From an uncultured Eubacteriales bacterium (GTDB lineage: Bacteria; Bacillota; Clostridia; Oscillospirales; Acutalibacteraceae): a stretch of 58,620 nt of DNA. This document shows positions 4,681 to 58,310 of this stretch, piece by piece; position 1 is the first letter of the stretch, and the number at the start of each line of letters is the position of its first letter. The stretch spans positions 1 to 58,620 of the forward strand of contig ONCX01000005.1 in NCBI GenBank assembly GCA_900316455.1. Reading direction: 5' to 3'. The notes under the pieces are model-generated. The model was not told where the DNA came from, ran no database searches, and was given only the letters and a program-made list of their open reading frames with translations. The translations under genes and the position numbers were made by a program.

Positions 4681-4729
4681 ATGAAAAAACATATCTATTT
4701 TTCCTTATTTGGCGTATGGGGTGCTTAGT

Positions 4730-5464
4730 ATGAAGCCTACAGTGCTTGTGACGGGCGGTTCGCGTGGGATAGGTCTTGCGACGGCGCGGCTCTTCGCCGC
4801 CAGCGGATACCCAACTGTGATTAATTACAATCTCAGTGCGGAACCGGCTCTCAGGACGGCGCGTGAGATCAATGCCGCCGGAGGAATGGCAATTGCCGTC
4901 AGAGCGGACGTTTCCCGCCCTGATGATGTTGCGGCAATGTTCGACGCGGCGCGTGAACAGCTCGGAAATGTCGGAATCCTTATTAACAACGCGGCTATAG
5001 CCGGACAGGGATTATTTACGGATACCGGCTATGATGAATGGAAAAGGACATTTGCCGTGAATGTTGACGGAATGTATCTCTGCTGCAAGGCGGCTCTCCC
5101 TTATATGCTTAGGGAACATTGCGGGTGCATAGTCAATCTTTCGTCTATGTGGGGGCAGGTCGGCGCTTCCTGCGAGGTTCTGTATTCGGCTACTAAGGCG
5201 GCTGTCATCGGATTGACTAAGGCGCTGGCGCAGGAGGTCGGTCCGAGCGGTATTAGGGTGAATTGTGTCGCGCCCGGCGTGATTGACACCGGCATGAATT
5301 CCCACCTTAGTCCCGACGATCTGCGGGAGCTTGCCGAATGCACGCCTTTGATGCGTTTGGGAAGTTCCGATGAGGTAGCGCGCACAATTTTTTTCCTCGC
5401 GTCGGACGACGCTTCATTCATAACAGGTCAGGTTATTTGTCCAAACGGCGGATATGTTGTATGA
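4730..5464 (+). CDS. ymfI: SDR oxidoreductase, probable EF-P 5-aminopentanone reductase (YmfI type)
   Basis: A 244-residue short-chain dehydrogenase. The nucleotide loop TGGSRGIG, the structural NNAA motif, and the catalytic Ser, Tyr and Lys in the SSMWGQVGASCEVLYSATK stretch are all present. The WGxVGAxCEVxYS pattern is characteristic of the YmfI subgroup, which reduces the 5-aminopentanone on a lysine of elongation factor P. A generic FabG-like ketoreductase is the alternative. The ATG at 4730 has GGGG about 9 bases upstream; the upstream TTG at 4709 lacks a ribosome site. Known EF-P modification links this gene to translation through polyproline stretches. Confidence 0.75.
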   Translation: MKPTVLVTGGSRGIGLATARLFAASGYPTVINYNLSAEPALRTAREINAAGGMAIAVRADVSRPDDVAAMFDAAREQLGNVGILINNAAIAGQGLFTDTGYDEWKRTFAVNVDGMYLCCKAALPYMLREHCGCIVNLSSMWGQVGASCEVLYSATKAAVIGLTKALAQEVGPSGIRVNCVAPGVIDTGMNSHLSPDDLRELAECTPLMRLGSSDEVARTIFFLASDDASFITGQVICPNGGYVV

Positions 5465-8821: not shown

Positions 8822-9105
8822 GGTTCTGCCCCTCAAATTACATTATATGAGTTATTATCGCACATTTTTTCGACCGCTGTATTACGAATATGTAAACATA
8901 CTACTAATTATTTTGATTACGGGTCTGCTTATATTTCAATGCGTTTAATTTTCCGGCGGTATTGACAAAATAATATCAATAGTGTAAAATGACTAATGTT
9001 AACTTCGTTTAATGAAAAAATTATGTCTGTTGTTTTTAATGTTAAAACGCTGCAATTTGTTTATTTTTCAGGCATGATTTATCTACAATTATTTCAGGTG
9101 ATTTA
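8822..9105. other. Divergent intergenic region
   Basis: 284 bases of AT-rich DNA between the leftward DUF5685 gene and the rightward FkbH operon. It holds the rightward promoter at 8962-8990; the roughly 115-base transcribed leader shows no recognisable riboswitch. Confidence 0.6.
8962..8990 (+). promoter_or_regulatory. Promoter of the FkbH-ACP-MBOAT-SGNH operon
   Basis: TTGACA at 8962-8967, then 17 bases, then TAAAAT at 8985-8990. It is the only consensus promoter found upstream of the four-gene acylation operon. Confidence 0.8.
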
Positions 9106-10836
9106 ATGATAGACTATACCGAATTGAAAAAGCTGTCCAGATCATCGGCAGCCGGTTTAAAAAAGATCAGGCTCGCTATATTGGGCGACTGCTCCACACA
9201 GCATATTACTACCGCCGTGAAGGGCTTCGCCATTACCAGAGGGATTTCGGCTGATGTTTTTGAGGCTGACTACAATCAGATAGACGCTCAGATTATTGAC
9301 GCCGGATCGGAGCTTTACAGGCATTCTCCGGAGTTCGTTCTGTTTGTAATGTGTACCGAAAAGCTCAGGGAATCCTTCTATATGCGCGATAAGGATTCGC
9401 GGGCGGGATTTGCCGCCGATATGACATTGAAAATCACGCGGTACTGGGACAGCGTTTCGGCAGGAATGCCGGCGTCGGTTCTTCAGTTCAGCTTTCCGTA
9501 TATCAATGACGGCGTGTTCGGCAGCTTCGGTCTTAAAGAAAAAAGTTCCTTTGTCTATCAGCTCCAACTGCTCAATTCCATGATTTCCCAAGAGGCTTCA
9601 AAACGTAAAAATGTTTTTATTATAGACATCAACGCCGTGCAGAGCAGACTCGGCGAGGATAAATTTTTTGACAGCAAGCTCTATTACATCGCTAAAATGC
9701 CGTTTTCATTGGAGGCTCTCCCTTATATCGCATTGCGAACCGTCTCCGTTATCGCGGCTGTCGGGGGCAATATAAAAAAGTGCGTGATACTCGACCTTGA
9801 CAATACATTGTGGGGCGGCGTGATCGGCGACGACGGACTGGAGGGAATCCGGATAGGCGAGCTTGGCACGGGCAGGGCGTTCTCGGATTTCCAGAGCTGG
9901 CTCAGGGGGCTCAGGGAAAGGGGCATACTCCTCGCCGTGTGCAGCAAAAACAATCCCGAAACCGCAAGACTGCCTTTTGAAAAGCACCCCGATATGATTC
10001 TCAGGCTTGACGATTTCGCAATGTTCGTCGCCAATTGGGAGGACAAGGCGAGCAATATCGTAAATATTCAGCAGACCTTGAATATCGGTATGGACAGCAT
10101 TGTTTTTATCGACGACAACCCATTTGAACGCGATCAGGTCAGAAGCGCCGTCAGGGATATTACCGTGCCGGAAATGCCGGAGGATCCTTCATATTATGTG
10201 AGCTTCCTCAAGGATCTCTGCCTTTTTGAAACGGCTTCATTCTCCGAGACCGACGCGGGCAGAACCGAAATGTACCGTCAGGAGGCGCAGCGCACGTCGC
10301 TTATGGCTTCATACGGCTCCTATGACGATTATCTCATGGCGCTTGAAATGCGTGCTGTATCCGCGGAATTTGACAGCTTCCATTATCCCCGCATAGCCCA
10401 GCTTACGCAGCGTTCCAATCAGTTCAACCTCAGGACGGTGAGGTATACTGAGGCTCAGATAGAGGCTCTCGCTCACAGCGACGCGCATATTACAAGGTAT
10501 TACTGCCTGCGCGACCGCCTTGGCGATCACGGGCTTATCGCCGTTGTCGTGCTTGACAGAATGCCGGACGGCGCACTGTTTATCAGCGAGCTTCTGATGA
10601 GCTGCCGCGTCCTAAAACGCGGAATGGAGGAATTCATTATTAATGATATTGTTTCAATAGCCCGAAAGGAAGGCTTTGAAACCGTCGTGGGTGAATATAT
10701 CCCTACACCTAAGAATTCTATGGTCGCCGACCTTTATACAAGATTGGGATTTACGGAAGCAGACGGCAGATTCTATGCCAATGTTTCTGAATTCAAAAAC
10801 AACAAAACATTTATTCAGGAGGAATTATTATCATGA
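9106..10836 (+). CDS. FkbH-like HAD-IIIC family protein (predicted glyceryl-ACP synthase)
   Basis: Members of the FkbH family take 1,3-bisphosphoglycerate, dephosphorylate it and load a glyceryl thioester onto an acyl carrier protein. The 576-residue protein has three parts: an SGNH-like N-terminal region (LAILGDCS, ~23-30); a HAD-IIIC core (~225-375) with LDLDNTLWGG carrying the nucleophile Asp230 and Asp232, CSKNN, a WEDKASNI lysine and IDDNPFERDQV; and a GNAT-like C-terminus (~440-570, RLGDHGLIAVV). It overlaps the ACP gene by 4 bases (ATGA), which supports the ACP as partner. Other FkbH-like enzymes may load related three-carbon acids, so the exact acyl group is inferred. Confidence 0.88.
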   Translation: MIDYTELKKLSRSSAAGLKKIRLAILGDCSTQHITTAVKGFAITRGISADVFEADYNQIDAQIIDAGSELYRHSPEFVLFVMCTEKLRESFYMRDKDSRAGFAADMTLKITRYWDSVSAGMPASVLQFSFPYINDGVFGSFGLKEKSSFVYQLQLLNSMISQEASKRKNVFIIDINAVQSRLGEDKFFDSKLYYIAKMPFSLEALPYIALRTVSVIAAVGGNIKKCVILDLDNTLWGGVIGDDGLEGIRIGELGTGRAFSDFQSWLRGLRERGILLAVCSKNNPETARLPFEKHPDMILRLDDFAMFVANWEDKASNIVNIQQTLNIGMDSIVFIDDNPFERDQVRSAVRDITVPEMPEDPSYYVSFLKDLCLFETASFSETDAGRTEMYRQEAQRTSLMASYGSYDDYLMALEMRAVSAEFDSFHYPRIAQLTQRSNQFNLRTVRYTEAQIEALAHSDAHITRYYCLRDRLGDHGLIAVVVLDRMPDGALFISELLMSCRVLKRGMEEFIINDIVSIARKEGFETVVGEYIPTPKNSMVADLYTRLGFTEADGRFYANVSEFKNNKTFIQEELLS

Positions 10837-11072
10837 CACGCGAGGAAATTTTTATGGCGCTGGACGAAATATTTCAGGATGAATTTGACGATGATGCAAT
10901 TCACGTTGACGAAACCACGACCGCCGATGATATAGACGGTTGGGACAGCCTTGAACATATCAATCTCATCGTTGCGGTGGAGAGGCGCTTCGGAATGAAA
11001 TTCAAGATGGCTGAGGTCACTGATATGAAAAATGTGGGAGAGATGGCTGATATCATTGCTGAGAGAATATGA
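10833..11072 (+). CDS. Acyl carrier protein
   Basis: A 79-residue acidic carrier protein. The phosphopantetheine attachment serine is Ser39 in GWDSLEHINLI, the standard DSL motif. Helix 1 and the hydrophobic helix-3 segment ADIIAERI are normal. It overlaps FkbH by 4 bases and precedes the MBOAT gene by about 20, so it is a dedicated carrier, comparable in position to DltC of the D-alanylation operon. The housekeeping fatty-acid ACP normally sits with fab genes, which are absent here. Confidence 0.93.
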   Translation: MTREEIFMALDEIFQDEFDDDAIHVDETTTADDIDGWDSLEHINLIVAVERRFGMKFKMAEVTDMKNVGEMADIIAERI

Positions 11073-11091
11073 GAATTAAGAGGATATGCAA

Positions 11092-12696
11092 ATGGAGTTA
11101 GTAACAGATATCTTACGCCACTCTTTATTCAGACTGACCTCGCCGCCGTTTCTGCTTTTTCTGCTCGTTATGACGGTCGTTTATTATTCCGTCCCTAAAA
11201 AGCACCAGTGGAAGGTTCTTCTTGCGGGCAACGCCTTATTCATAGGTCTTTACGCGGGAATTATGTCTGTATGGCAGTTCGCGCTTCCGCTGGCGGTTTA
11301 TCTTGCCGCGTCGCTTATAATATATTCCGTACCCATTATTATTCAAAGGGCGGGCGCGGAAAGAAAAAAAAGAGCCGCGCTTATTGCCGGTATAGCGTGT
11401 CTTTCACTGCTGTTCGTGCTTTTCAGGCTCGCAAACAGCTTTATTCTGACGATTAACGGCTTTCTTCCGGACGGGTGGCGGCTTTCGCCGATAAGCTTTT
11501 CTTGGATCGCTCCCGTCGGCATAGCGTATTTTCTTTTGTCCGGCATTGGCTACATTGTTGACGTTTACTGGGAGAAATATCCCGCGGAACGCAGCTTTGC
11601 GAGGGTCGCGCTTATTGCCGGATTCTTTCCGGCGCTTGTTTCAGGTCCCATAGTGAGGTATGACAAAATTTCGGAAAGTCTCTTTACCCCTCACAGCTTT
11701 GACTATCAGAAATTCAAGTTCGGCGCGGAAAGAGTGATTTACGGCTTTTTTAAGAAGCTTGTCATCGCTGACCGCGCATCGGCGGTCACGGGCGCTCTTT
11801 TCGGCAATCCGGAGACGACGGCTGTTCCGTATATTTTCGGACTGTTCCTTTTCGCGCTGCAATTGTACTCGGATTTTTCCGGCTGTATGGATATTATGCT
11901 CGGTACTGCCGAAATATTGCAGATAGAGCTTCCCGAAAACTTCCGGAGACCGTTTTTCGCAAGGAATCTTTCGGAATTCTGGCGCAGATGGCACATTACC
12001 CTCGGATTATGGGCTAAGGATTACATAATGTACCCTCTCCTGAAAAGCAAGCCGTTTTTTGAGCTTGGCGTTTGGTGCAGAAAAAAATTCGGCAGGAAGC
12101 TCGGCAAAACTATTCCCTCGTATGTCGCTATGCTCGCTCTCTGGATTATAATTGGTTTATGGCACGGCGGAGCGCCGAAATACGTGTTTTCATCAGGAAT
12201 ACTCCTATGGATTACAATTGTCGGCGGACAGCTGCTTCAGCCCGCTTTTGACAAACTTTCCGGTTTTTTGAGGATTAACCGGAAGAGCGGGGCTTACGGG
12301 ATATTCTGCAATTTTCGCACGCTTTGCCTCATGTGCTTTGCGTGGCTTTTCTTCTCGGCTGATACTCTTACCTCCGGCGCGAAGGCTTTTATCCGCATAA
12401 TCAGGACTTTCCCCGGTGATCTTATCCATATCGGCGCGTCCGCTGGTCATATTATCGCCGCCTTTAAATCGGCAGGTTACAACCTGTACGACATTCTTAT
12501 ACTGATGTTCGGGTTTGCCGTTTTGCTGACGGTCGGAATACTCACTGAAAAAATGGGATTCAACGTTCGTCAGAAGCTGCAGGATACGAATATTGCCGTT
12601 GAATGGTTCGTGCTGTTCTTCTTTATTTTCTTTGTGATTATCTTCGGAATATACGGTCCGGGGTACAACGTCGCGGACTTTATTTACAACCTATAG
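11092..12696 (+). CDS. MBOAT family O-acyltransferase (DltB/AlgI-like)
   Basis: A polytopic membrane O-acyltransferase of about 534 residues with roughly 11-12 helices. It carries the family signatures: a YCxxS-like tract at LYSDFSGCMDIMLGTAEIL, NFRRPFFARNLSEFWRRWHITL, and the catalytic-histidine motif GLWHGGAPKYV. AlgI/DltB proteins pass an acyl group from a cytoplasmic carrier through the membrane to an extracytoplasmic polymer. Two in-frame ATGs lie at 11086 and 11092; the second has the better spacing from AAGAGG (11078-11083). It lies between the ACP and the SGNH protein, matching the DltC-DltB-DltD order in function. The acceptor polymer is unknown. Confidence 0.93.
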   Translation: MELVTDILRHSLFRLTSPPFLLFLLVMTVVYYSVPKKHQWKVLLAGNALFIGLYAGIMSVWQFALPLAVYLAASLIIYSVPIIIQRAGAERKKRAALIAGIACLSLLFVLFRLANSFILTINGFLPDGWRLSPISFSWIAPVGIAYFLLSGIGYIVDVYWEKYPAERSFARVALIAGFFPALVSGPIVRYDKISESLFTPHSFDYQKFKFGAERVIYGFFKKLVIADRASAVTGALFGNPETTAVPYIFGLFLFALQLYSDFSGCMDIMLGTAEILQIELPENFRRPFFARNLSEFWRRWHITLGLWAKDYIMYPLLKSKPFFELGVWCRKKFGRKLGKTIPSYVAMLALWIIIGLWHGGAPKYVFSSGILLWITIVGGQLLQPAFDKLSGFLRINRKSGAYGIFCNFRTLCLMCFAWLFFSADTLTSGAKAFIRIIRTFPGDLIHIGASAGHIIAAFKSAGYNLYDILILMFGFAVLLTVGILTEKMGFNVRQKLQDTNIAVEWFVLFFFIFFVIIFGIYGPGYNVADFIYNL

Positions 12697-12707
12697 GAGA
12701 GGCTTTT

Positions 12708-13814
12708 ATGAAAACAAAAACCGGTTCTTTTAGCGTAAAAGCGAAAAACGCTATTCGATTGACCTGTTTCCTGCTGATATTTTGCGTTCTGTTTTCATTG
12801 CTGACCTTTATTTTCAGACCCAATCTGGCTGAGGGCATACATCTGAAACAGTACGATACCCTTCAGGACAATTCGCTTGATATGATATATATCGGCGGAA
12901 GCGTCTGCATTGTGTCATGGATGCCTTACGAGGCGTGGAATGAATTCGGATTCACAAGCTACGACGTCGGCATAAGCAGTCTGCTTGCCTATAATTTCCA
13001 GCCGCTTCTTGACGAGGCTCTGAAAACTCAGAATCCGGGGCTGATTGTTGTGGACGCAAGACCTTTTTATTACACAACCGGTCATGACTATGAGCATAAA
13101 TACTTTGCGCTTGTCCTTTCGTCCTCTATGAAACAGAATACTTACAACAATTTCAAGGTCAGATACAATACCTATAAGTATTGCTATGAGGGTGAGGACG
13201 TATCTTCATATTTTATTGATATGATGTCGTTTCACGGCAGCTGGAAGAGCTTTGGCGATCAGGTTAAAAAGGCGGATAATTACCGCAAGGCTACCTTAAC
13301 CGATAATCCCGATCTGACTATGGGCTTTTTGTTCGTGAAGGAATGGCAGAAAATCCAGCTCGGCGATTTTTCGTCCGTTACCGACGCGTCGCCGCTTTCG
13401 GAGACCGGAGAACAATCTCTCCTCAGCTTTATCGGTTATCTCAGGGAAAAAAATCTCAAGGCGCTGTTTGTCGTCGCCCCGTATCGGGAAACCGAAGAAG
13501 AACGTATGGGATATAATTCCGTCAAATCCATTGTGGAGGAAAACGGATTCGATTTTCTTAACGCAAACGACTTTGTGCAGGAGATGGGTCTGAGTCAGGA
13601 CGCGGATTTTTATAACGACAATCATCTTAATGTTTTCGGCGCAAAAAAATATACCTCATTCCTCGGAGAATATCTCAGGGAAAAATACAGTCTCGCGGAT
13701 CACCGTTCCGACCCTGATTACAGTTCATGGGACGAGGGCTTCAAAAGGTGGGAAAATCAGCGCGCAGCAGTGGAGGAAAATGTTGACGCGCTTATGAAAT
13801 CAGACGGAGAATGA
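12708..13814 (+). CDS. Membrane-anchored SGNH/DltD-like protein of an acylation system
   Basis: A 368-residue protein with one N-terminal signal anchor (~14-36) and an extracellular domain. IYIGGSVCIVSW carries a G-x-S type motif (Ser65) where SGNH hydrolases have their nucleophile. VVDARPFYY and the C-terminal FYNDNHLNVFGAKKY supply candidate catalytic Asp and His. Proteins of this sort accompany MBOAT enzymes and are thought to complete transfer of the acyl group to its acceptor. ATG 12708 follows AGGAGA; a longer GTG reading from 12603 would overlap the MBOAT gene with no ribosome site. It is the last gene before a strong terminator. Confidence 0.82.
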   Translation: MKTKTGSFSVKAKNAIRLTCFLLIFCVLFSLLTFIFRPNLAEGIHLKQYDTLQDNSLDMIYIGGSVCIVSWMPYEAWNEFGFTSYDVGISSLLAYNFQPLLDEALKTQNPGLIVVDARPFYYTTGHDYEHKYFALVLSSSMKQNTYNNFKVRYNTYKYCYEGEDVSSYFIDMMSFHGSWKSFGDQVKKADNYRKATLTDNPDLTMGFLFVKEWQKIQLGDFSSVTDASPLSETGEQSLLSFIGYLREKNLKALFVVAPYRETEEERMGYNSVKSIVEENGFDFLNANDFVQEMGLSQDADFYNDNHLNVFGAKKYTSFLGEYLREKYSLADHRSDPDYSSWDEGFKRWENQRAAVEENVDALMKSDGE

Positions 13815-13830
13815 TAATATTTCGGCAGAA

Positions 13831-13875
13831 GTATCGGTTGAACCGCTTTAGCGCGGTTCGACCGATACTATTTTA
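13831..13875 (+). terminator. Terminator of the acylation operon
   Basis: A 16-base stem with one G-U pair (13831-13846 with 13853-13868) around a 6-base loop, followed by TATTTTA. It closes the FkbH operon. Confidence 0.85.
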
Positions 13876-21289: not shown

Positions 21290-22225
21290 TTATTGTGATG
21301 ATGTTTCATTACTTCCAGTGTCAGCCGGTGTGAGCTTTGCGAAATTGGCTATATTCATGAAGTCCTCCCTGAGCTGGTCGCCGGCGGGTTCTTTGGTGAA
21401 GAAGAAAATGTATATCAGACTTTTATTGTCTGTCTTTGCGTAATGATAGGAATAGAGATTGTTTATATAGCATTCAAAATAGGAGATGCCGCTGTCGGTG
21501 GTTTGCACCTCGGTTATGTCCTTGCCGTCTACGGTCTTGTAGCCGCCCTGTTCGGCTGCTGAGAGACAGAACGCCTGTGACGAATAATTCTTTGGTACGG
21601 TATAGACGGAAACGCTGGTAAGATATCTTTCACAGGAATAAAAGCGGCTCCCTGTGAAGGTTGAATCTCCGTCAATCGTCATATCAACGCCGCCTATTGT
21701 CACATCGGTGACAGCCTTTGTTTCCTTGATAACCTTCGCGGTGGAAATTATGGATTGATATTGCTTCATATTTTTTTCGGAGTCTTCCGGTTTTGAGTAG
21801 AATTCGAGAATATAGAATTCGTTCCCTCCGTCCAGCAAAAATGACGTGAACCGGTAATTTTCGCCTTCCTGCGGCGCGGAGTATTCCAAATAGCTGACCT
21901 CGCCGGATTTCTGAATGGCAGTGGGATTGCTTTTTCCCTCAAGCATTTCATTCAGCTTGTCGTCAGACGTCTTTCCGCTGAGAATTGCGCTTGTGGCGTT
22001 TATTATGTAAATATTCATGCCGTAGTCGCCGCATGAATAAGTGGCAAAGATTTTTCCGTCGCCTGCCGCGGGGGAGGGGCTTTCCGCCATGTCGTCACGT
22101 ATGGAAATTTCCATATTACCGACTGTTATCTTTTTATTGAATTTTGTAAAAAGCGAGCAAGATGACATGGAAATTATTATGGAAATAACCGCTGCCGTTA
22201 TAATGATTTTTCTTGTGGATTTCAA
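21290..22225 (-). CDS. Lipoprotein, third member of a tandem paralogous family
   Basis: A 311-residue lipoprotein (lipobox near SMSSC). After the signal it reads ITVGNMEISIRDDM, the same opening as the two upstream genes (ITAxNIxVTIRDDM). The chain then has two related halves, each with a YGMN or YLEYSA-type strand and an FYSKPEDxEK segment. This is the most diverged of the three. The neighbouring copies indicate gene duplication in place. No characterised family is recognised. A serine/threonine-rich end follows. Confidence 0.7.
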   Translation of the reverse strand: MKSTRKIIITAAVISIIISMSSCSLFTKFNKKITVGNMEISIRDDMAESPSPAAGDGKIFATYSCGDYGMNIYIINATSAILSGKTSDDKLNEMLEGKSNPTAIQKSGEVSYLEYSAPQEGENYRFTSFLLDGGNEFYILEFYSKPEDSEKNMKQYQSIISTAKVIKETKAVTDVTIGGVDMTIDGDSTFTGSRFYSCERYLTSVSVYTVPKNYSSQAFCLSAAEQGGYKTVDGKDITEVQTTDSGISYFECYINNLYSYHYAKTDNKSLIYIFFFTKEPAGDQLREDFMNIANFAKLTPADTGSNETSSQ

Positions 22226-22274
22226 TTATGTTTTCCTCCGTTTATACTGTACCATATGGTTTTATGTTTTTTTT

Positions 22275-23183
22275 TTACGCCGTGTGCGATTTGTCGATAA
22301 TTTCATTAAGGTCGGCTTTCAGTGCGTCGTCGTCTGGGATTTTCGTGTGAAAGATTACATAATAGATTGAGTTGTCTATGTCCATTACGTAATATGTCGA
22401 GTAGGATTCATCGGACGATGTTTCAAAATAGGGAATACCTCCCGGAGTGGTCTTCAGCTCGCCGGCGTTATTGATGGTATCGCTTACCCTGAACTTTTCG
22501 GCGAATTCCTCCGGCGTCATTTTATCTGCTCTGATATTGCTATTTGTTACCTGTAATAAATACCTGCCGCACTGATATGAGCTGCTTGACAGTTCATATG
22601 CGTCGCCGTCCAGCTCAAAGATTACGCCATGAATATTTACGTCGATAGTCGCTGGCGGCTCTTCCAATATTTTTACGCTGGAAATTATTTTCTCATATTC
22701 TTCGCGGTACTTGTCATTATTCTTTGCCTTAGTGTGGAATTCAAAGAAATAATCCTCGTAGCCCTCTTTCATAATGTAAACCGTGTAAAGGAAATCCGTT
22801 TCGCCCGACGTCCGCACGCATTCTATGTAGCTTATATCGCCGAATTTTTTGATTTCAGTGGCGTTCTTGCCCTTTTCGGCTATGCTTTTTAAAAATTCGT
22901 CGCCGGTTTTGCCGTTGTATGTCCGTAATGTGACGGTTCTTGCGTCTATGCTGCCGACATTCATACCGTAGCCGTCCCAGCGGAAGCCGGTGATGTAGCT
23001 TTCGCTGTTTTTGATTTTTTCCTGTTCCGTCATGTCGTCGCGGATAGTTACCCTGATATTTCCGGCTGTGATTTCCTGTGTGAAATCCGCATTGTTCTGC
23101 AGCGAGCATGACGTAAGGGGGAGAATCATTGCAAGCGTTGCGGTCATTGTGATGACAGCTATGAGTTTTTTGATTGCGTTCAT
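22275..23183 (-). CDS. Lipoprotein, second member of the tandem family
   Basis: A 302-residue lipoprotein (lipobox LTSC). It shares FTQEITAxNIxVTIRDDM, the YGMNxG strand, GDISYIxxxxSxxTDF and YYFFEFxTKxxNxxKYxxEYEKIIxSVxIxEEP with the gene at 23347, so the two are close paralogues along their whole length. The second half repeats the first half's strand order (DVxIxGVxxxxDGDAxExSS). The ribosome site GGAGG lies upstream of the ATG. The function is unknown; the repeated fold and lipid anchor suggest a surface-binding role. Confidence 0.72.
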   Translation of the reverse strand: MNAIKKLIAVITMTATLAMILPLTSCSLQNNADFTQEITAGNIRVTIRDDMTEQEKIKNSESYITGFRWDGYGMNVGSIDARTVTLRTYNGKTGDEFLKSIAEKGKNATEIKKFGDISYIECVRTSGETDFLYTVYIMKEGYEDYFFEFHTKAKNNDKYREEYEKIISSVKILEEPPATIDVNIHGVIFELDGDAYELSSSSYQCGRYLLQVTNSNIRADKMTPEEFAEKFRVSDTINNAGELKTTPGGIPYFETSSDESYSTYYVMDIDNSIYYVIFHTKIPDDDALKADLNEIIDKSHTA

Positions 23184-23271
23184 ATGCGGAAGCCTCCGTT
23201 CAGTTTGTTTTACAATATTATTCTAACAATTATCATTATTTTTGTCAAGACGCACTTTAACATATTACAAG

Positions 23272-23308
23272 AGCCGCACATCAGAATTTTGGAATCTGAT
23301 GTGCGGCT
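23272..23308 (-). terminator. Hairpin between paralogous lipoprotein genes
   Basis: A 14-base perfect stem (23272-23285 with 23295-23308) and a 9-base loop. The T tract is poor on both strands, so it may be a weak terminator or an mRNA-stabilising end for the upstream gene. Confidence 0.55.
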
Positions 23309-23346
23309 GTGATGTTATGACCGCAAGTTTATTATGTTTTATGGAT

Positions 23347-24258
23347 TCATGCCGCGTGCGCGCCGTCAACTATATTGTTGAATTCAGCTTTGAGCTGATC
23401 GTCGGCTGGAACCATCGTGGATAGCATGATATAATAGATCTTGCCGTCTATTTCCTTGACATAATGCGTTCCGTAAAGCTCGTCAGCCATCGCTTCAAAG
23501 TAAGGCACGCCTCCGTCTGTCGTCTTGTATTCGGTTACGTCCTGACCGTCGGCTGTCTTATAGCCGCTCTTGAGAAGAATGTTTACAAAGTTCTCAGGCG
23601 AGGAAAGGCTTGAGCTAAGTCCTGAATTGTAAACTGTTACGGAATATCTGCTGCAAAACCATGTGCCGCTTGACTGCTCAAAGGCGTCGCCGTCCATTGT
23701 CAGCGCAACTCCTTCTATAGTCACATCGGCTGTCTTTGCGGGTTCTTCAATAATGCTCACGCTGTCTATGATTTTTTCGTATTCATTCTGATATTTTCCC
23801 GCGTTATCAGGTTTTGTGTAGAACTCGAAGAAATAGTATTCATAGCCGACTTCCATAATGTAAACGTCAGAGAAGAAATCGGTTCCGTCTGAGCTTTCGG
23901 TGTACTGGATATAGCTTATATCGCCGTATTTCTTGATTTCGGAGGGATTCTTGCCGCTTTCTCCGACCTTTTTGAGAATATCGTCGCCGGTCTGACCCGA
24001 CAGCTTTACTGTGCTTGTGTCGTTTGCGCTGACGTTTCCGATATTCATGCCGTAGCCGTTCCAGAGATAGCCGGTGATATAATCGTCGTCATTCTTGATC
24101 TCGTCCTGCTCTTTCATATCGTCGCGGATAGTGACCTTGATATTTTCGGCGGTGATTTCCTGTGTGAAATTTGCCTTGTTCAGCAGCGAGCATGACGCGG
24201 CGGAGAGAAGCATCGCAAGCACCGCTGTCAGGGTGATGAGTCTTTTGATTGTTTTCAT
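23347..24258 (-). CDS. Lipoprotein, first member of the tandem family
   Basis: A 303-residue lipoprotein (lipobox SAASC) from ATG 24258, chosen because GGAGG lies 9 bases upstream; 15 extra codons upstream lack a site. It has the same two-half layout as its paralogues at 22275 and 21290, with FTQEITAENIKVTIRDDM at the mature N-terminus, GDISYIQYTES centrally and YYFFEFYTKPDNAGKY. The family is not recognised. Divergence is least between this copy and the one at 22275. Confidence 0.72.
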   Translation of the reverse strand: MKTIKRLITLTAVLAMLLSAASCSLLNKANFTQEITAENIKVTIRDDMKEQDEIKNDDDYITGYLWNGYGMNIGNVSANDTSTVKLSGQTGDDILKKVGESGKNPSEIKKYGDISYIQYTESSDGTDFFSDVYIMEVGYEYYFFEFYTKPDNAGKYQNEYEKIIDSVSIIEEPAKTADVTIEGVALTMDGDAFEQSSGTWFCSRYSVTVYNSGLSSSLSSPENFVNILLKSGYKTADGQDVTEYKTTDGGVPYFEAMADELYGTHYVKEIDGKIYYIMLSTMVPADDQLKAEFNNIVDGAHAA

Positions 24259-24332
24259 TTGTGGAAGCCTCCGTTTCTTATGTTTGTGATTACATTGTAA
24301 CAAACCGACGCTATTTTGTCAAGTATTATTTA

Positions 24333-50778: not shown

Positions 50779-51900
50779 TCAGAGTGTTTTGAGATAATTC
50801 ATGAAGTTCCGCTTGTTTTCGATAGCGGTAGTTGTGGGTCTTCCGAGGTCGTCGCGAGCGCCGATGGAGCATTTCACCTCGATGAGGGAGAGCGCGTTTC
50901 TGTTCTTTGCGGCTTCCAGCTCACTGTCGAGCGCCTCAAAGCTGTCCACGCTCACGGCATACGGATAGCCGCACGCTTTTGCGATTGATACGAGGTCAAT
51001 TTTGGCAGCGACCGTGGGCATACCGCCGACGGTTTCATGCGCGCCGTTGTTGATAACCACATGTATGAGATTCTCCGGCGCATTAGCTCCAAGCACTGCC
51101 ATTGCGCCCATATGCATAAGCACCGCGCCGTCGCCGTCAACGCACCAGATTCTCTGCTCCGGCTTCTGAAGTGCGACTCCCAGCGCAATTGAGGAGGAAT
51201 GTCCCATAGAGCCGACGGTCAGGAAGTCAAACTGATGTCCCTGTCCATTGGCTTCACGAATTTCAAATAGCTCGCGGCTTGCCTTGCCTGTAGTGGAAAC
51301 AATGGGATCGCTGCCGCTTGCCGCGACAATATGGCGGATAATATCCTCGCGTACCATTGTGTTGTCATTTTTGTATGTAACTTTGCCGTCATAGCTCAGT
51401 GCGCCCTTGCCGATGACGAACGCCACGTCCTTGCCTGTGGCGAGAATCTCACGGAATTTCGCCATTGCGTCTGCGACTTCCTCGTCCGCGGTGTCCTTGG
51501 TAATTACGAAAGGCGCAATGTCCATATCCTCCAGCAGCTTAACGGTTACTTCGCCCTGATAGATGTGCTGCGGTTCGTCGTGCGTACCGGGCTGACCGCG
51601 CCAGCCGACGACAAACACGGTGGGGATAGCATACACCTTATCATTTAGCAGCGACGCGACGGGATTGATTATGTTGCCTTCGCCGCTGTTCTGCATGTAG
51701 ACTACCGGAACCTTGCCTGTGGCGAGATGATAACCCGCCGCAAGCGCGGCGCAGTTGCCCTCGTTGGCAGCGATGATATGATGCTGCGGATCAATGCCAT
51801 AGGTATTCATCAGGTAGTTGCAAAGAGCCTTGAGCTGACTGTCCGGAACGCCGGTGTAAAAGTCCGCTCCGATAATTTCAATTAATTTTTCGACTTTCAT
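50779..51900 (-). CDS. aepY: Phosphonopyruvate decarboxylase (ThDP-dependent)
   Basis: A 373-residue enzyme that decarboxylates phosphonopyruvate to phosphonoacetaldehyde, making the unfavourable PEP mutase step irreversible. Features are FYTGVPDSQL at the N-terminus, the catalytic Glu in AANEGNCAALAAGYHLATG, and the thiamine-diphosphate motif GDGAVLMHMGAMAVLG...VVINN (GDG to NN). The ATG overlaps the reductase stop by 4 bases (ATGA). Substrate choice is set by the adjacent PEP mutase gene. Sulfopyruvate decarboxylases are related but improbable in this context. Confidence 0.93.
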   Translation of the reverse strand: MKVEKLIEIIGADFYTGVPDSQLKALCNYLMNTYGIDPQHHIIAANEGNCAALAAGYHLATGKVPVVYMQNSGEGNIINPVASLLNDKVYAIPTVFVVGWRGQPGTHDEPQHIYQGEVTVKLLEDMDIAPFVITKDTADEEVADAMAKFREILATGKDVAFVIGKGALSYDGKVTYKNDNTMVREDIIRHIVAASGSDPIVSTTGKASRELFEIREANGQGHQFDFLTVGSMGHSSSIALGVALQKPEQRIWCVDGDGAVLMHMGAMAVLGANAPENLIHVVINNGAHETVGGMPTVAAKIDLVSIAKACGYPYAVSVDSFEALDSELEAAKNRNALSLIEVKCSIGARDDLGRPTTTAIENKRNFMNYLKTL

Positions 51901-53021
51901 TTATTTTCTCCCAATATTTCGCGGTACAGTTGATTGATTGTCTCCAAATCCAGTGCGATAGGATGATTCTTCAAGCGGGTGGGATTGACTGAATTTCTTA
52001 ATATCTCATAATCCGATTCGCTTGCGACCGGCACGGACAACTCCATGGAATCCACCAAATCGCGGAATTTCCGGCTTGCTTCTTCCGGCGTGTCGCATTT
52101 GAATACAGCTGCAATTTCTCCGAACGTGCGGCAGAGATAATCCTCGCCCCTTGTGTCAATGCACTTATCTGTATGCCGAAGCATCCACGGAAAGAGCGTC
52201 CTGTCGCAGAGCGCGGCGGCGTGTCCGTGCGCGATTCCGAAAAGGCTGGTGAGCTTGTAGCACATAGCGTGTCCGGCTGTGGTCTGGGTGATATTGATTG
52301 CCTTGCCCGCGAGATTGGCGGCGTGCAGCATGTCTTCACACGCGGCGGCGTCGCCCGAAAGATAAGCTTCTTGGCTGGCAAGTATCAGCTCAATTGCCTT
52401 GCGTGAATAGCCCTTGCTCTCGTCAGTGCTGTTGACCGACCAGAAAGACTCCAGCGCGTGACACAGTGCGTCGAGCATTGTGGATTTTTTCTGATAAGGC
52501 GGCAGCGTTTGCAAAGCGCCTGCGTCAAACATTACCGCCGATGGAATACAGCTTTCATGAGTAACCGACTGCTTGACCCCGTTGTAATAAATCACAGCGT
52601 AACGCGTCGCCTCCGAGCCTGTTCCCGCCGTTGTCGGCATGGCAAGAAGCGGTACGTCGTTCGGCACGACGGTTTGTTCCAGGTAGTTCCTGCCGGAATC
52701 CATATTGCAGTAGAGTTTTACGCACTTGGCAACGTCAATGGCTGAACCGCCGCCTATAGCGGCTATAGCTTCGCAGCCGTTTGCTTTGAATACCGACACG
52801 CCGTCCTCAACCGATTCATACAGCGGATTGGGTCTGAAACGGTCGAATTTTACTACCCGCACGCCGGTACGGCTTTGGAGCGTATCAAAATAATCATTTA
52901 TTTTAAGAAATTGAATTGAATCGTCGCACACAAGCAGCAGTGTACGTATATGATTATCTTTCAGCCAGCGGTCGAATGATTCGTAATTATTGGCAGCAGT
53001 GAGAATGGTTTGCCGTGCCAT
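51897..53021 (-). CDS. Iron-type alcohol dehydrogenase, probable phosphonoacetaldehyde reductase (PhpC-like)
   Basis: A 374-residue member of the iron-dependent alcohol dehydrogenases. The NAD(P) motif AIGGGSAIDVAK, the MPTTAGTGSEATRYAV segment and the metal-binding Asp/His residues (LDALCHALESF, TAGHAMCYKLTSLFGIAHGHA) are all visible. Between PEP mutase and phosphonopyruvate decarboxylase, the natural substrate is phosphonoacetaldehyde, giving 2-hydroxyethylphosphonate. An AEP transaminase is absent from the operon, supporting the hydroxyethyl branch. It starts 12 bases after the mutase stop. Confidence 0.85.
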   Translation of the reverse strand: MARQTILTAANNYESFDRWLKDNHIRTLLLVCDDSIQFLKINDYFDTLQSRTGVRVVKFDRFRPNPLYESVEDGVSVFKANGCEAIAAIGGGSAIDVAKCVKLYCNMDSGRNYLEQTVVPNDVPLLAMPTTAGTGSEATRYAVIYYNGVKQSVTHESCIPSAVMFDAGALQTLPPYQKKSTMLDALCHALESFWSVNSTDESKGYSRKAIELILASQEAYLSGDAAACEDMLHAANLAGKAINITQTTAGHAMCYKLTSLFGIAHGHAAALCDRTLFPWMLRHTDKCIDTRGEDYLCRTFGEIAAVFKCDTPEEASRKFRDLVDSMELSVPVASESDYEILRNSVNPTRLKNHPIALDLETINQLYREILGENK

Positions 53022-53033
53022 TCCACTCCCTCC

Positions 53034-54950
53034 TTATTCCTCTGGAATGGCGGGGAATCCGGTGCGTGTGAGTTGATTGGCATAAATGATGATATTAGCG
53101 CCGCGCTCCTTGAATTCCTCCTCATATACCGTATTGAAGGAGGTGGGAACCAATACAATAGGAGTGGTCTTGTCCTTCTCGCGGAATTTTGCGATAAATT
53201 CAAAGATTTCGTCCGGCTCCTTGCGCCTGCTGTGAATCATGATTGCGTCAGCGCCCGCTCCGGCAAAAGCGAAGGCGCGTTCCAGCGCGTCGTCCATGCC
53301 GCGTTCGAGGATCAGCGATTCAATGCGCGCGCAGATCATGAAATCGGCTGTCTTCTGAGCGTTTTTGCCGGCGCGTATTTTCTCACAGAAATTCTCAATG
53401 GAATCCTGCGTTTGTTTGACCTCTGTGCCAAAGAGCGAATTTTTCTTTAGTCCGGTCTTATCCTCGATAATTACCATTGAAACGCCCATGCGTTCCAGCG
53501 TGCGGACGGTGTAGACAAAATGCTCGGTGAGTCCGCCGGTGTCGCCATCGAAGATTATAGGCTTGGTAGTGACCTCCATAATGTCGTCGATCGTGCGGAA
53601 ACGGCTTGTCATATCCACCAATTCTATGTCAGGCTTGCCCTTGGCGGTGGAATCGCAGAGTGAGCTGATCCACATAGCGTCGAACTGATGTGTGCCGCCG
53701 TCCTGATAGACGACCGTTTTTTCCACAATCAGACCTGTGATACCGCTGTGGGCTTCCATGGCGGTAATAAGTCCTTTCATTTCAAGTGTTTTCCTCAGGC
53801 GTGCGCGGCGCACGTCGGGGAGGGACAGTTCGGCTCTCGCCCTGTCCTCAAGCAGCTTGTACTTAGGATTGTCGGAGTAGGGAAATTCCACCAGTTTGCC
53901 GCCGTATGAGGCAAGCACCGAAACGACTTCATCGCGCACCGGCTTCTGGAATCCCGTTGCCCAATCGTCGCCATGTACTACGACGTCCGGCTTGTATTTT
54001 TCGAGATTTTCCTTGTAGGAAAGAGCGTTCTGATCAACAACCTTGTAGACTCCTGCGATATTGGCAAACATGATCTTGCGTTCCTCGGCTGGAACAAGAG
54101 GAAAGCGTTTGTAGCCAGTCACAGCTTCGTCCGAAAGCACGCCGATTATAAGCCTGCCCAGCCGCTGCGCTTTTTTGATTATAGCGATGTGACCCCCGTG
54201 TATAATGTCAGTGGAAAAGCACATATATACCGTGCGGCGTTCGACTTCATTGAGCTTCGCGGAGACAACCGCCAGATCTTCGGGATTGTCGATTTCTGAG
54301 CAGAGCAGATTACCCACGTCAAGCGCGTCGATATCCGCCTTTCCGTCCAGCTCATTGAGGGCGTTTTCGGCGTAAACCTTGCGGTTGTCCGCCTCGCAGA
54401 ATGCGACGATTCTGTCGAGCCACTTCCGCCATGCTTCACGGGTCAGCTTGTAGAGCGGCTGTGCTGCCATAGCGTCGTTGAAGAAGCCGATGCCGACCTT
54501 AGTCACCTTACCGTTTTTTACTACCGCCTTAAAATCCTTATCCGGCAGCGGGAGGGAAGAGCTGACTGTCATGCAGGAACCGTTATGATTCATCACACGG
54601 TCAAAGACCTCGTTTTCAAAGACCAGATCTCCGTGCATAAGCAGAATGTCGTCGTCGAGATAATCTCTCGCGCAGTAAATACTGTAAATGTAATTTGTCT
54701 CAGCGTATACCGGATTCTTGACGAATGTAATGTGAATTGGAAGTTCAAGACTCTGGCAGTAATTCACCAGCACGCTGTCAAAAGCTCCCGTGGTCATGAC
54801 GACCTCTTCAATTCCCGCCTCGGCTATCTGCCGCAGCTGGCGTGAGAGAATGGTTTCATTCCCGCTGATTTCTGTCATACACTTAGGGTGTTCCGACGTC
54901 AATACGCCCATTCGTGATCCAAGTCCGGAATTTAATATTAGTGCTTTCAT
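53034..54950 (-). CDS. PEP mutase fused to two nucleotidyltransferase-type domains
   Basis: A 638-residue three-domain enzyme. Domain 1 (~1-235) is a sugar/choline-phosphate-type nucleotidyltransferase: LILNSGLGSRMG, PKCMTEI, DDILLMHGDLVF. Domain 2 (~243-360) is a Rossmann cytidylyltransferase fold: CFSTDIIHGGHIAIIKKA (HxGH) and VLSDEAVTGYKR. Domain 3 (~375-638) is PEP mutase: MEAHSGITGLIVEKT, FDGDTGG and the diagnostic EDKTGLKKNS loop. The mutase forms the C-P bond; domain 1 would CMP-activate the phosphonate for transfer to a glycan or lipid. Where fused cytidylyltransferases have an ISSTxL-type motif, domain 2 here reads YSDNPKYKLLED, so it may be inactive. ATG 54950 has better spacing from AAGGA than ATG 54956. 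Confidence 0.88.
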   Translation of the reverse strand: MKALILNSGLGSRMGVLTSEHPKCMTEISGNETILSRQLRQIAEAGIEEVVMTTGAFDSVLVNYCQSLELPIHITFVKNPVYAETNYIYSIYCARDYLDDDILLMHGDLVFENEVFDRVMNHNGSCMTVSSSLPLPDKDFKAVVKNGKVTKVGIGFFNDAMAAQPLYKLTREAWRKWLDRIVAFCEADNRKVYAENALNELDGKADIDALDVGNLLCSEIDNPEDLAVVSAKLNEVERRTVYMCFSTDIIHGGHIAIIKKAQRLGRLIIGVLSDEAVTGYKRFPLVPAEERKIMFANIAGVYKVVDQNALSYKENLEKYKPDVVVHGDDWATGFQKPVRDEVVSVLASYGGKLVEFPYSDNPKYKLLEDRARAELSLPDVRRARLRKTLEMKGLITAMEAHSGITGLIVEKTVVYQDGGTHQFDAMWISSLCDSTAKGKPDIELVDMTSRFRTIDDIMEVTTKPIIFDGDTGGLTEHFVYTVRTLERMGVSMVIIEDKTGLKKNSLFGTEVKQTQDSIENFCEKIRAGKNAQKTADFMICARIESLILERGMDDALERAFAFAGAGADAIMIHSRRKEPDEIFEFIAKFREKDKTTPIVLVPTSFNTVYEEEFKERGANIIIYANQLTRTGFPAIPEE

Positions 54951-55005
54951 AATCATTATCCTTAATATATTGTATTGATTAAAAACTGATTTAAAATTGA
55001 TTTAT

Positions 55006-57162: not shown

Positions 57163-57492
57163 TCAATCCAGCAATTGCACGATGTTCCGACCGCCATAAA
57201 TCATTCTTGCGATGGTTAAAAGATGTTTTTCTTCGTTCACCCAATAGAATACAAGATAATTCCTGACGACCATTTTTCTGTGTTCTGACTTTAACGGCTT
57301 AACAGAAAAAGCCGCAAGGGGAAAATAAACATGGTATCTGTATGGCATTTCAGCGAGTTTTTCGATCGTTGAAACAATATTCTCAGAGAGTCGGTCAGCT
57401 GCTTCGGGATTATTCAGTTTGACGCCGATATAATCCGCAATCTCTGTCAAGTCCCGAAGAGCGGAAGGCAGATATTCAATCTGATACGTCAT
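57163..57492 (-). CDS. ParE/RelE-type toxin
   Basis: A 109-residue protein of the RelE/ParE superfamily, which includes mRNA interferases (RelE) and gyrase inhibitors (ParE). YQIEYLPSALRDLTEIADYIG at the N-terminus, IEKLAEMPYR in the middle and VVRNYLVFYWVNEEKHLLTIARMIYGGRNI at the end are the typical blocks, the last with the conserved Arg. The ATG at 57492 overlaps the end of the antitoxin gene by 17 bases, the usual antitoxin-first order. A member-specific target cannot be assigned. Confidence 0.9.
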   Translation of the reverse strand: MTYQIEYLPSALRDLTEIADYIGVKLNNPEAADRLSENIVSTIEKLAEMPYRYHVYFPLAAFSVKPLKSEHRKMVVRNYLVFYWVNEEKHLLTIARMIYGGRNIVQLLD

Positions 57493-57646
57493 GGAAGGAT
57501 TCACATCTCGCGGCTTTTCGCATAGCGGCTAAAACGTCCTTCGAGGAAAATCTTTCGTCGGTCATTTCGGCTTCTCTTTCCGCTTCGGCGAGCTTGGAAT
57601 ATACCTCGCTTTCAAACCGCAAGTTTTCGTAAGCTTCCATACTCAT
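57476..57646 (-). CDS. Antitoxin of the ParE/RelE-type pair
   Basis: A 56-residue acidic protein, too short for standard ORF lists, encoded directly upstream of the toxin. It reads MSMEAYENLRFESEVYSKL, then AEAEREAEMTDERFSSKDV, LAAMRKAARCESFHDVSD and stops at 57476. The N-terminal half is predicted helical and may be the part that binds the toxin; no clear ribbon-helix-helix is seen, so DNA binding is uncertain. A 17-base overlap with the toxin start suggests coupled translation. Confidence 0.8.
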   Translation of the reverse strand: MSMEAYENLRFESEVYSKLAEAEREAEMTDERFSSKDVLAAMRKAARCESFHDVSD

Positions 57647-57684
57647 GACAACTTATACTAAGTCTTATCATCACACAAAAAAGA

Positions 57685-58023
57685 TTATTCCATAAGATTC
57701 TCAATAGAATTGATGAATTCGCCCATCTCGTCAAAAACGACTTCAACAATAATAGACCAGTTTATTCCTTCGTAATCATGAACCAATCGGTGTCTTAATC
57801 CGGAAACGACGCTCCACGGAATATCGGAATGAACTTTTTTAAATTCAGGGCTTAACAGATACACTTGTTCACCAATATTGTACAATGGTGTAGTAACAGC
57901 CCATTGAAGAAAGGTATCAGTCAAAAGCCGTTCTTTTGTGATATTGTGTGCATTGATTTGATCTTGCAGGGAATTCCATGTCCGTATGATTTTCTTGATT
58001 CGTTCTTTATCAGAAATCTTCAT
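57685..58023 (-). CDS. HepT-like HEPN (DUF86) toxin
   Basis: A 112-residue HEPN protein. The RNase motif RX4HXY is present as RHRLVHDY. It is paired with a MNT-type nucleotidyltransferase gene whose stop overlaps its start by 4 bases (ATGA). In characterised HepT-MntA pairs the nucleotidyltransferase inactivates HepT by adding AMP to the Tyr in this motif, and both required residues are present. Intact motifs suggest a functional system. Confidence 0.88.
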   Translation of the reverse strand: MKISDKERIKKIIRTWNSLQDQINAHNITKERLLTDTFLQWAVTTPLYNIGEQVYLLSPEFKKVHSDIPWSVVSGLRHRLVHDYEGINWSIIVEVVFDEMGEFINSIENLME

Positions 58024-58310
58024 GCAATTTTGACCCCCTCTTTCATCAGGTTTTCGTAAAATGGTGTGTCCTTATTCACTTCGCTGATTTCAAATACGTC
58101 AGCGTCTTTTCCAAGCATTTCCCTTAATTCTTCGGCAAAGGCAAATATATTTGATTTTTTGAAGTGAGTACCTCCAAAAACAACCACATCAATATCCGAA
58201 TTGATGGTTTCTTCTCCTCTGGCATAGGAACCAAAAAGCAGCGCATAATCGGCATGATAGCGAACAAGCAAAAATCTGATGCAGTTTTCAATATCCGTTC
58301 TCGTTGGCAT
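58020..58310 (-). CDS. MntA-like minimal nucleotidyltransferase antitoxin
   Basis: A 96-residue MNT-fold protein with LLFGSYARGEETINSDIDVVVFG, the GSx10DxD motif of the polβ nucleotidyltransferase superfamily. It is the expected antitoxin to the adjacent HEPN gene and lies first in the pair. GGAGGA precedes the ATG. No ATP-binding residue is missing that I can see. Confidence 0.88.
   Translation of the reverse strand: MPTRTDIENCIRFLLVRYHADYALLFGSYARGEETINSDIDVVVFGGTHFKKSNIFAFAEELREMLGKDADVFEISEVNKDTPFYENLMKEGVKIA

Follow-up and report, generated by a model that had tools for sequence, protein, structure and literature searches.

MBOAT-SGNH acylation systems have been divided, in the available text of a 2025 paper on PatA/PatB, into Dlt systems, which use a carrier protein and DltX, and others, which have no carrier, use acyl-coenzyme A (acyl-CoA) and bear a fused motif (PMC12148441). 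According to the same text, PatA acylates the Tyr of its own C-terminal FxYxxF motif, and DltX bears this motif as well. FkbH enzymes load a glyceryl group from 1,3-bisphosphoglycerate, as the accessible portions of three further papers state (PMC8949500, PMC7489565, and PMC4979870). Here, we analyze a four-gene operon on the plus strand of a 58,620-nucleotide stretch of DNA from an uncultured Eubacteriales bacterium of the family Acutalibacteraceae (contig ONCX01000005.1; the whole stretch is called the window below). At positions 9106 to 13814 it encodes, in this order, an FkbH-type enzyme, an acyl carrier protein (ACP), an MBOAT, and an anchored SGNH-fold protein. FkbH-ACP-MBOAT-SGNH operons straddle the division described above, combining a dedicated carrier and no DltX with a fused motif. 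We consider it fairly probable that the operon encodes a carrier-protein-dependent MBOAT-SGNH system for cell envelope acylation, in which FkbH-loaded glyceryl would reach a polymer through a relay of Tyr534 of the MBOAT and Ser65 of the SGNH protein. This proposal builds on direct observation of the gene set and its order, of conserved residues, predicted folds, and recurrence, and of loader exchange in the MBOAT tree.

Genes of the operon and their conserved residues

The first gene (9106 to 10836, plus strand) encodes an FkbH-type loading enzyme of 576 aa with an FkbH_N domain (196.1 bits; Pfam cut-off, 27), the HAD motif DLDNT at residues 230 to 234, and a C-terminal MSCRVLKR motif containing Cys500. 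It scores 289.7 bits with TIGR01686 (FkbH domain; NCBIfam cut-off, 146.65), and its best-matched PDB entry is 3slr (BF1531; E value of 9.9e-112 over residues 4 to 381). DLDNT and the Cys motif (MSCRVLKR region) are each present in 115 of 117 FkbH proteins. No second FkbH_N was found in the window genome, the match being confined to the window. The second gene (10833 to 11072, plus strand) encodes a dedicated ACP of 79 aa with the phosphopantetheine Ser39 in WDSL (codon 10947 to 10949). The ACP passes PF00550 (25.8 bits; cut-off, 20.8) and reaches only 13.5 bits with the DltC model NF003464 (cut-off, 68). It is 49 to 68% identical to six FkbH-linked ACPs and 14 to 25% identical to three DltC-like carriers; judged by these identities, the carrier goes with the loader, the FkbH-type ACP being unlike the DltC type.

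The third gene (11086 to 12696, plus strand) encodes an MBOAT of 536 aa with His303 and His360 (PF03062, 37.3 bits; cut-off, 27). A second conserved His is a feature of MBOATs. The sole NCBIfam match is DltB at 129.2 bits, far under the cut-off of 375. The AlphaFold model has a mean predicted local distance difference test (pLDDT) score of 90.2, and its top PDB match is DltB 8jem (E value of 2.5e-11). Tyr534, His303, and His360 are invariant across a 44-row alignment of MBOATs that are FkbH linked, DltA linked, or neither. Tyr534 (codon 12685 to 12687) and Phe532 lie in a C-terminal acyl-shuttle-like motif, FIYNL (12679 to 12693, plus strand; consensus, FxYxxF). Among the FkbH-linked MBOATs longer than 420 aa (n = 84), 78 carry an exact C-terminal FxYxxF and 3 a close form; the remaining 3 are those of loci L142 and L146, which are split open reading frames (ORFs), and the window's FIYNL. 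Shorter MBOAT ORFs fall outside this count; that of L081 (391 aa) lacks the terminal motif, and that of L132 is short. A plasmid search with the window MBOAT returned 72 records, all below 60% identity and the best at about 27 to 32%. Within its 2.19 Mb, the window genome holds eight genes for MBOATs, the majority paired with an SGNH or DHHW protein, which amounts to a rich envelope acylation set.

The fourth gene starts at ATG 12708, not at 12603 of a longer ORF, and encodes a predicted membrane-anchored SGNH-type acyltransferase of 368 aa (12708 to 13814, plus strand) with Ser65, His306, and Asn303. No Pfam or NCBIfam family claims this protein, and Pfam DltD (PF04914) gave no match up to an E value of 1. 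Its AlphaFold model shows an N-terminal helix (residues 10 to 43) and an SGNH-type fold, with a mean pLDDT of 76.7 and blocks within residues 121 to 220 below 70. The top PDB match of the model in Foldseek is a weak one to DltD 6pfx (E value of 2.7e-4; TM score of only 0.38). Esterases of the GDSL/SGNH type and designed proteins come next, and PatB ranks 47th. When a profile of the protein's relatives was compared with the PDB, SGNH hydrolases matched best (E value of 3.9e-10), along with DltD (3.7e-5) and AlgX (4.2e-4), and weak matches were obtained to AlgJ (0.019) and PatB (0.066). Ser65 and His306 are invariant in a 46-row SGNH alignment. Nine SGNH-labelled proteins were scanned with Pfam: one scored above the cut-off (L156, AlgX), three gave sub-threshold SGNH-type matches (L141, DUF1574; L122 and L054, GDSL), and five (the window, L039, L104, L126, and L130) gave none.

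The genes are spaced by -4 bp (FkbH/ACP), +13 bp (ACP/MBOAT), and +11 bp (MBOAT/SGNH gene). The DltX microprotein is absent from the operon, since these gaps leave no room for it; the MBOAT itself carries the shuttle-like motif. An earlier note on this DNA had proposed a tightly packed set of an FkbH-like HAD enzyme, a dedicated ACP with Ser39, an MBOAT, and an anchored SGNH-like protein at this place. Gene positions, family matches, and folds confirm the four genes, the gaps confirm the packing, and the enzyme and the ACP both score above curated cut-offs. Assignment of the fourth protein as SGNH-like by eye alone was rejected as a basis; the predicted fold and the profile matches back it, as do the anchoring N-terminal helix and the conserved Ser65 and His306.

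Recurrence of the gene set

We surveyed the best 80 of 570 confirmed FkbH loci from GTDB species, a set that leans toward the window's FkbH. Genes were called as the longest ORFs and labelled by hidden Markov models (HMMs) built from these same loci, and a gene was counted as linked, or in range, when it lay on the same strand no more than 6 kb away. Among the best 80 loci, 71 have an ACP, 54 an MBOAT, and 46 both an MBOAT and an SGNH-type gene, the SGNH counts being partly circular because the HMM for SGNH proteins had been refined iteratively on the locus pool. These 46 loci fall into Bacteroidota (33), Bacillota (9), Verrucomicrobiota, Omnitrophota, and Spirochaetota (1 each), with 1 assigned to no phylum. 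In the window's family (398 genomes), an MBOAT is in range at 26 of 42 FkbH places (25 of 41 tallied rows plus L039), and several of the others are cut by contig ends. By our own arithmetic, chance would place an MBOAT near FkbH in about 3% of cases, even at 8 MBOATs per 2.19 Mb. Across all loci, a gene of fitting length directly follows the MBOAT within 150 bp in 112 cases, and 110 of these genes carry an SGNH-type or DHHW label; of the two exceptions, the gene of L121 is AlgX type by Pfam. The strict order FkbH-ACP-MBOAT-SGNH occurs at 17 of 161 loci, the window included, 40 of the 161 having been entered through their MBOAT rather than their FkbH. Recurrence in many genomes led us to reject the idea that the gene set is a one-off of the window genome. 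Co-conservation in FkbH-ACP-MBOAT-SGNH neighborhoods, on which the earlier note had staked its proposal, was borne out by the 46 loci. At two Bacteroidota loci, L165 and L174 (Candidatus Symbiothrix and Bacteroidales), genes for DltA-like, DltC-like, FkbH, and ACP proteins stand together, with no MBOAT within 6 kb.

Exchange of the loading module

In a survey of 120 genomes of the window's family, 28 other MBOATs scored above 240 bits to the window MBOAT, and all were inspected. Twenty-six of them sit with DltA-like and/or DltC-like genes (L049 and L063 show the DltC-like gene alone); the best-scoring one (L039) is FkbH linked, and L053 has neither loader. In an MBOAT tree of 129 rows, built by quick search with SH-aLRT support (SH-like approximate likelihood ratio test) only, the window MBOAT belongs to a starred clade (98) of 12 rows, of which 11 are FkbH linked and the twelfth, L129, has an FkbH gene 6.5 kb off. 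The enclosing starred set (99) comprises 46 MBOATs, 26 DltA linked, 18 FkbH linked, and 2 unlabelled. The FkbH and DltA labels require at least 3 changes on this tree, and starred branches force 2 for the DltA label. The tree also led us to reject the window MBOAT as an ordinary stand-alone type. Among 18 genomes of the window's genus, 7 (its own included) have a strong MBOAT match; the six others comprise three DltA-DltC-MBOAT-SGNH arrangements, one ACP-MBOAT-SGNH-FkbH arrangement, one locus interrupted where its contig stops, and one with neither loader. The loader is thus exchanged, FkbH-ACP for the DltA-DltC type, on a common MBOAT-SGNH chassis, even inside one genus.

The sole DltA-like ligase of the family that was scanned, that of L054, scores 309.5 bits against the DltA cut-off of 559.85. 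Genes for pyridoxal phosphate-dependent decarboxylases of the ornithine/diaminopimelate/arginine type lie inside the DltA-like/MBOAT/SGNH operons L046, L048, L050, L051, L055 to L057, L059, and L062, one of the nine having been scanned. Because of the sub-cut-off ligase and the decarboxylase genes, the amino acid of the DltA-like operons need not be D-alanine, and the decarboxylase-bearing operons suggest either a different amino acid or an amine in its place.

The FkbH gene appears to have moved as well. The window FkbH shares 55 to 56% identity with the FkbHs of L121 and L122 but only 33 to 36% with seven from its own family. In a tree of 117 FkbH rows, its group contains nine further members, each with an MBOAT (support 94, not starred), and stands apart from the FkbHs of its family; however, the window's MBOAT clade includes the MBOATs of five family loci, L039, L093, L103, L104, and L112. 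In 18 of 41 rows (L083 to L087, L089, L092, L094, L095, L099, L100, L105, L107 to L111, and L113), the family's FkbH lineage also occurs together with another group of MBOATs and an SGNH protein of the DHHW type, and 16 of these rows include an ACP. From the disagreement of the FkbH and MBOAT groupings and from this second architecture, it appears that the loading module joined an MBOAT-SGNH chassis on more than one occasion.

Proposed mechanism and acyl group

By analogy with its family, the FkbH enzyme would move the glyceryl group of 1,3-bisphosphoglycerate to the phosphopantetheine on Ser39 of the ACP. From the conserved residues, the MBOAT would then pass glyceryl through the membrane to Tyr534 in the motif at its own C terminus, and this motif would stand in for DltX. 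The anchored SGNH protein may accept the acyl group on Ser65 and then esterify hydroxyls of an extracytoplasmic polymer. The window genome has 6 Glyphos_transf matches; a polyol-phosphate (teichoic-type) polymer is therefore a possible acceptor and one candidate among others.

Relatives of the operon carry further genes in range. MaoC and a short-chain dehydrogenase/reductase (SDR) occur together at 21 of the best 80 loci, and MaoC alone occurs at 7. A methyltransferase gene is found at L145 and a 2-hydroxyacyl-dehydratase component at L129, and glyoxalase-fold genes lie between ACP and MBOAT at L128, L145, and L175. Split transketolase genes stand beside FkbH-ACP-MBOAT with MaoC at L121, L126, and L130 (Desulfovibrio, Verrucomicrobiota, and Clostridia), accompanied by an aldo/keto reductase gene at L121 and L126, the two loci in which the gene at this position was scanned; these three loci represent an extended variant. 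The gene content of these relatives suggests tailoring of an ACP-bound 2,3-dihydroxypropionyl (glyceryl) group. In our reading, which draws on chemistry and on one line of a published table, MaoC and SDR would turn glyceryl into lactyl in the relatives. Bryostatin is said to offer a precedent for lactyl loading, although our literature search did not return it. The table, in the part of the source available, belongs to a pathway tool and lists FkbH as converting 1,3-bisphosphoglycerate to D-lactate-ACP (PMC7901079). The window operon contains no tailoring gene, and no MaoC match was obtained in the window genome, which is 88.6% complete; bare glyceroyl is therefore our best guess for the acyl group of the window system. 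An SDR gene at 4709 to 5464, counted for the window's row in the 6-kb tally only through its distance, was dropped as a part of the system, since a gene for a deacetylase and three genes on the other strand intervene.

We lean, if only slightly, toward a broader proposal, in which 1,3-bisphosphoglycerate-derived glyceryl would represent a further donor class of MBOAT-SGNH systems, neither acyl-CoA nor aminoacyl-adenylate. The group would be drawn straight from glycolysis and exported bare, as a glyceroyl ester, by minimal operons such as that of the window and tailored on the carrier (to lactyl, O-methylglyceryl, or others) in extended ones, with a swappable loader, in Bacteroidota and Clostridia.

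Alternative explanations

The tailoring genes of the relatives raise the possibility that the route is as proposed and the acyl group is another, with ACP-bound glyceryl processed by enzymes encoded elsewhere (through dehydration and reduction to lactyl, methylation, or other tailoring), or a different acyl phosphate used by FkbH, and lactoyl or another 2-hydroxyacyl group exported. MaoC with SDR, the methyltransferase, the dehydratase component, the transketolases, the aldo/keto reductases, and the D-lactate-ACP table entry all speak for this possibility, whereas the bare operon, the genome without MaoC, and the separation of the SDR gene by intervening genes make us regard it as rather unlikely for the window. 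It is improbable that the acceptor of the MBOAT-SGNH pair is a membrane lipid, a glycolipid, or a secreted small molecule and not a wall polymer. Polyketide pathways are known to use FkbH-ACP pairs, and sugar acylation has been proposed for an MBOAT of a cyanobacterial peptide cluster, as far as the text at hand of these papers goes (PMC7489565, PMC4979870, and PMC13122637). However, no synthase-sized gene adjoins the operon, relatives in the same MBOAT group carry DltA-like loaders, and an SGNH partner with a C-terminal Tyr motif is, in the available text, the pattern of envelope polymer acylation (PMC12148441). Two unconnected functions, with the MBOAT-SGNH pair using acetyl-CoA and FkbH-ACP feeding another pathway, would be very surprising. 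Because the window genome has seven other MBOATs, presumably acetyl-CoA users, and no other FkbH_N, its MBOATs need no FkbH; against this stand genes that overlap or nearly abut, an MBOAT in range at 54 of the best 80 loci and 26 of 42 family places against about 3% expected, and MBOAT subclades that track the loader type.

Several observations weigh against glyceryl transfer by the Tyr534/Ser65 relay to an envelope polymer as we propose it. No MBOAT is in range at 26 of the best 80 loci, some of which lie at contig ends or have an opposite-strand MBOAT, and in genus member G158 (L101) no MBOAT lies close to FkbH-ACP. The operon adjoins no glycan or teichoic gene, and the lack of obvious polymer genes beside it also favors a lipid or small-molecule acceptor. 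The window's FIYNL has Phe532 and Tyr534 and ends in Leu one residue short of FxYxxF, and residues 533 to 536 of the MBOAT model, Tyr534 among them, have a pLDDT below 50. An Asp is expected three residues before the His of SGNH proteins; this position is Asn303 in the window and Asp in many relatives, Asn being found also in L039, L051, L126, and L130, among others. In a second SGNH alignment (43 rows), Ser65 is replaced by Cys in the DltA-type loci L044 and L064. The trees were quick ones without bootstraps.

Control signals and surrounding genes

The earlier note had also assigned one strong promoter and a terminator to the operon. A sigma-70-like promoter, TTGACA-17-TAAAAT (8962 to 8990, plus strand), matches at 11 of 12 positions and lies 115 bp from the first ATG; its strength is only plausible, because sites of this type in the region (11) do not exceed those in shuffles (mean, 9.7; standard deviation, 3.7). 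The terminator held up better: an intrinsic-terminator-like hairpin (13830 to 13869, plus strand) has a 17-bp stem and a z score of -5.94, with 0 of 200 shuffles equally stable, and its T tract is short. Three minus-strand genes flank the operon on one side and a DNA polymerase III delta gene on the other.

Elsewhere in the window, a three-gene phosphonate-type operon (50779 to 54956, minus strand) encodes a nucleotidyltransferase-phosphoenolpyruvate mutase fusion (640 aa), a thiamine pyrophosphate enzyme, and an iron-containing alcohol dehydrogenase; we take these to include a phosphonopyruvate decarboxylase and to belong to a hydroxyethylphosphonate pathway. The operon could perhaps provide head groups for glycans or lipids of the cell surface. 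Three neighboring lipoprotein-like genes (21290 to 24303, minus strand; 311, 302, and 318 aa), whose N-terminal parts look alike by eye, are apparently paralogues. Near the window's end, a ParE-type toxin gene and a HepT/nucleotidyltransferase pair are present (57163 to 58310, minus strand).

Comparison with known systems

The earlier note knew of no characterized system with this gene set, and our literature searches do not contradict it. No description of an FkbH-ACP-MBOAT-SGNH system was found among the matches listed in the searched literature, which is weak evidence, as most subscription journals lie outside its coverage. No paper pairing HAD-IIIC with an O-acyltransferase was found, and the gellan literature named no glyceryl transferase gene among the matches listed. 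Among the matches found, the visible parts of the literature naming FkbH together with an MBOAT concern cyanobacterial peptides. If our proposal is true, surface chemistry would be tied to a glycolytic intermediate, and a family of unrecognized base-labile esters of glyceroyl or related groups would exist on the surface polymers of gut and environmental bacteria. Alkaline work-ups could miss such esters. The minimal set of four genes is a clean target for reconstitution.

The glyceryl-loading FkbH-ACP modules of the tetronate and methoxymalonyl pathways resemble the window operon in placing an FkbH-type enzyme beside a stand-alone ACP. They differ in that the window operon contains no ketosynthase or FabH-like gene and has an MBOAT-SGNH export pair on its acceptor side. 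The O-acetylation systems PatA-PatB and AlgI-AlgJ/AlgX have a C-terminal Tyr shuttle motif on the MBOAT, which the window's FIYNL resembles, and share with the window operon a separate anchored SGNH protein; unlike the window system with its dedicated FkbH-ACP pair, they use acyl-CoA and no carrier, according to the text available (PMC12148441).

With the Dlt pathway, the window operon shares a carrier protein as the presumed donor, a DltB-fold MBOAT, and an SGNH partner whose best PDB match is DltD, and sister MBOAT groups in the window's family adjoin DltA-like and DltC-like genes. In contrast to Dlt operons, it has no AMP-forming ligase and no DltX, the shuttle-like motif being fused to the MBOAT; its ACP is unlike DltC, its MBOAT falls under the DltB cut-off, and its SGNH protein is unmatched by Pfam DltD. 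No DltA above the curated cut-off was found in the window genome at its 88.6% completeness (best, 92.5 bits against 559.85). The earlier description of a Dlt-like operon with FkbH in place of DltA is supported by the MBOAT tree and by the presence of both kinds of operon inside the window's genus. The loader swap stands, and the likeness needs one correction, since the window operon also lacks DltX and its MBOAT itself bears a shuttle-like motif as PatA does. All five Dlt features tested (DltA, DltC, DltB, DltX, and DltD) came out negative. The window operon therefore does not count as a Dlt operon, but it probably works in much the same way.

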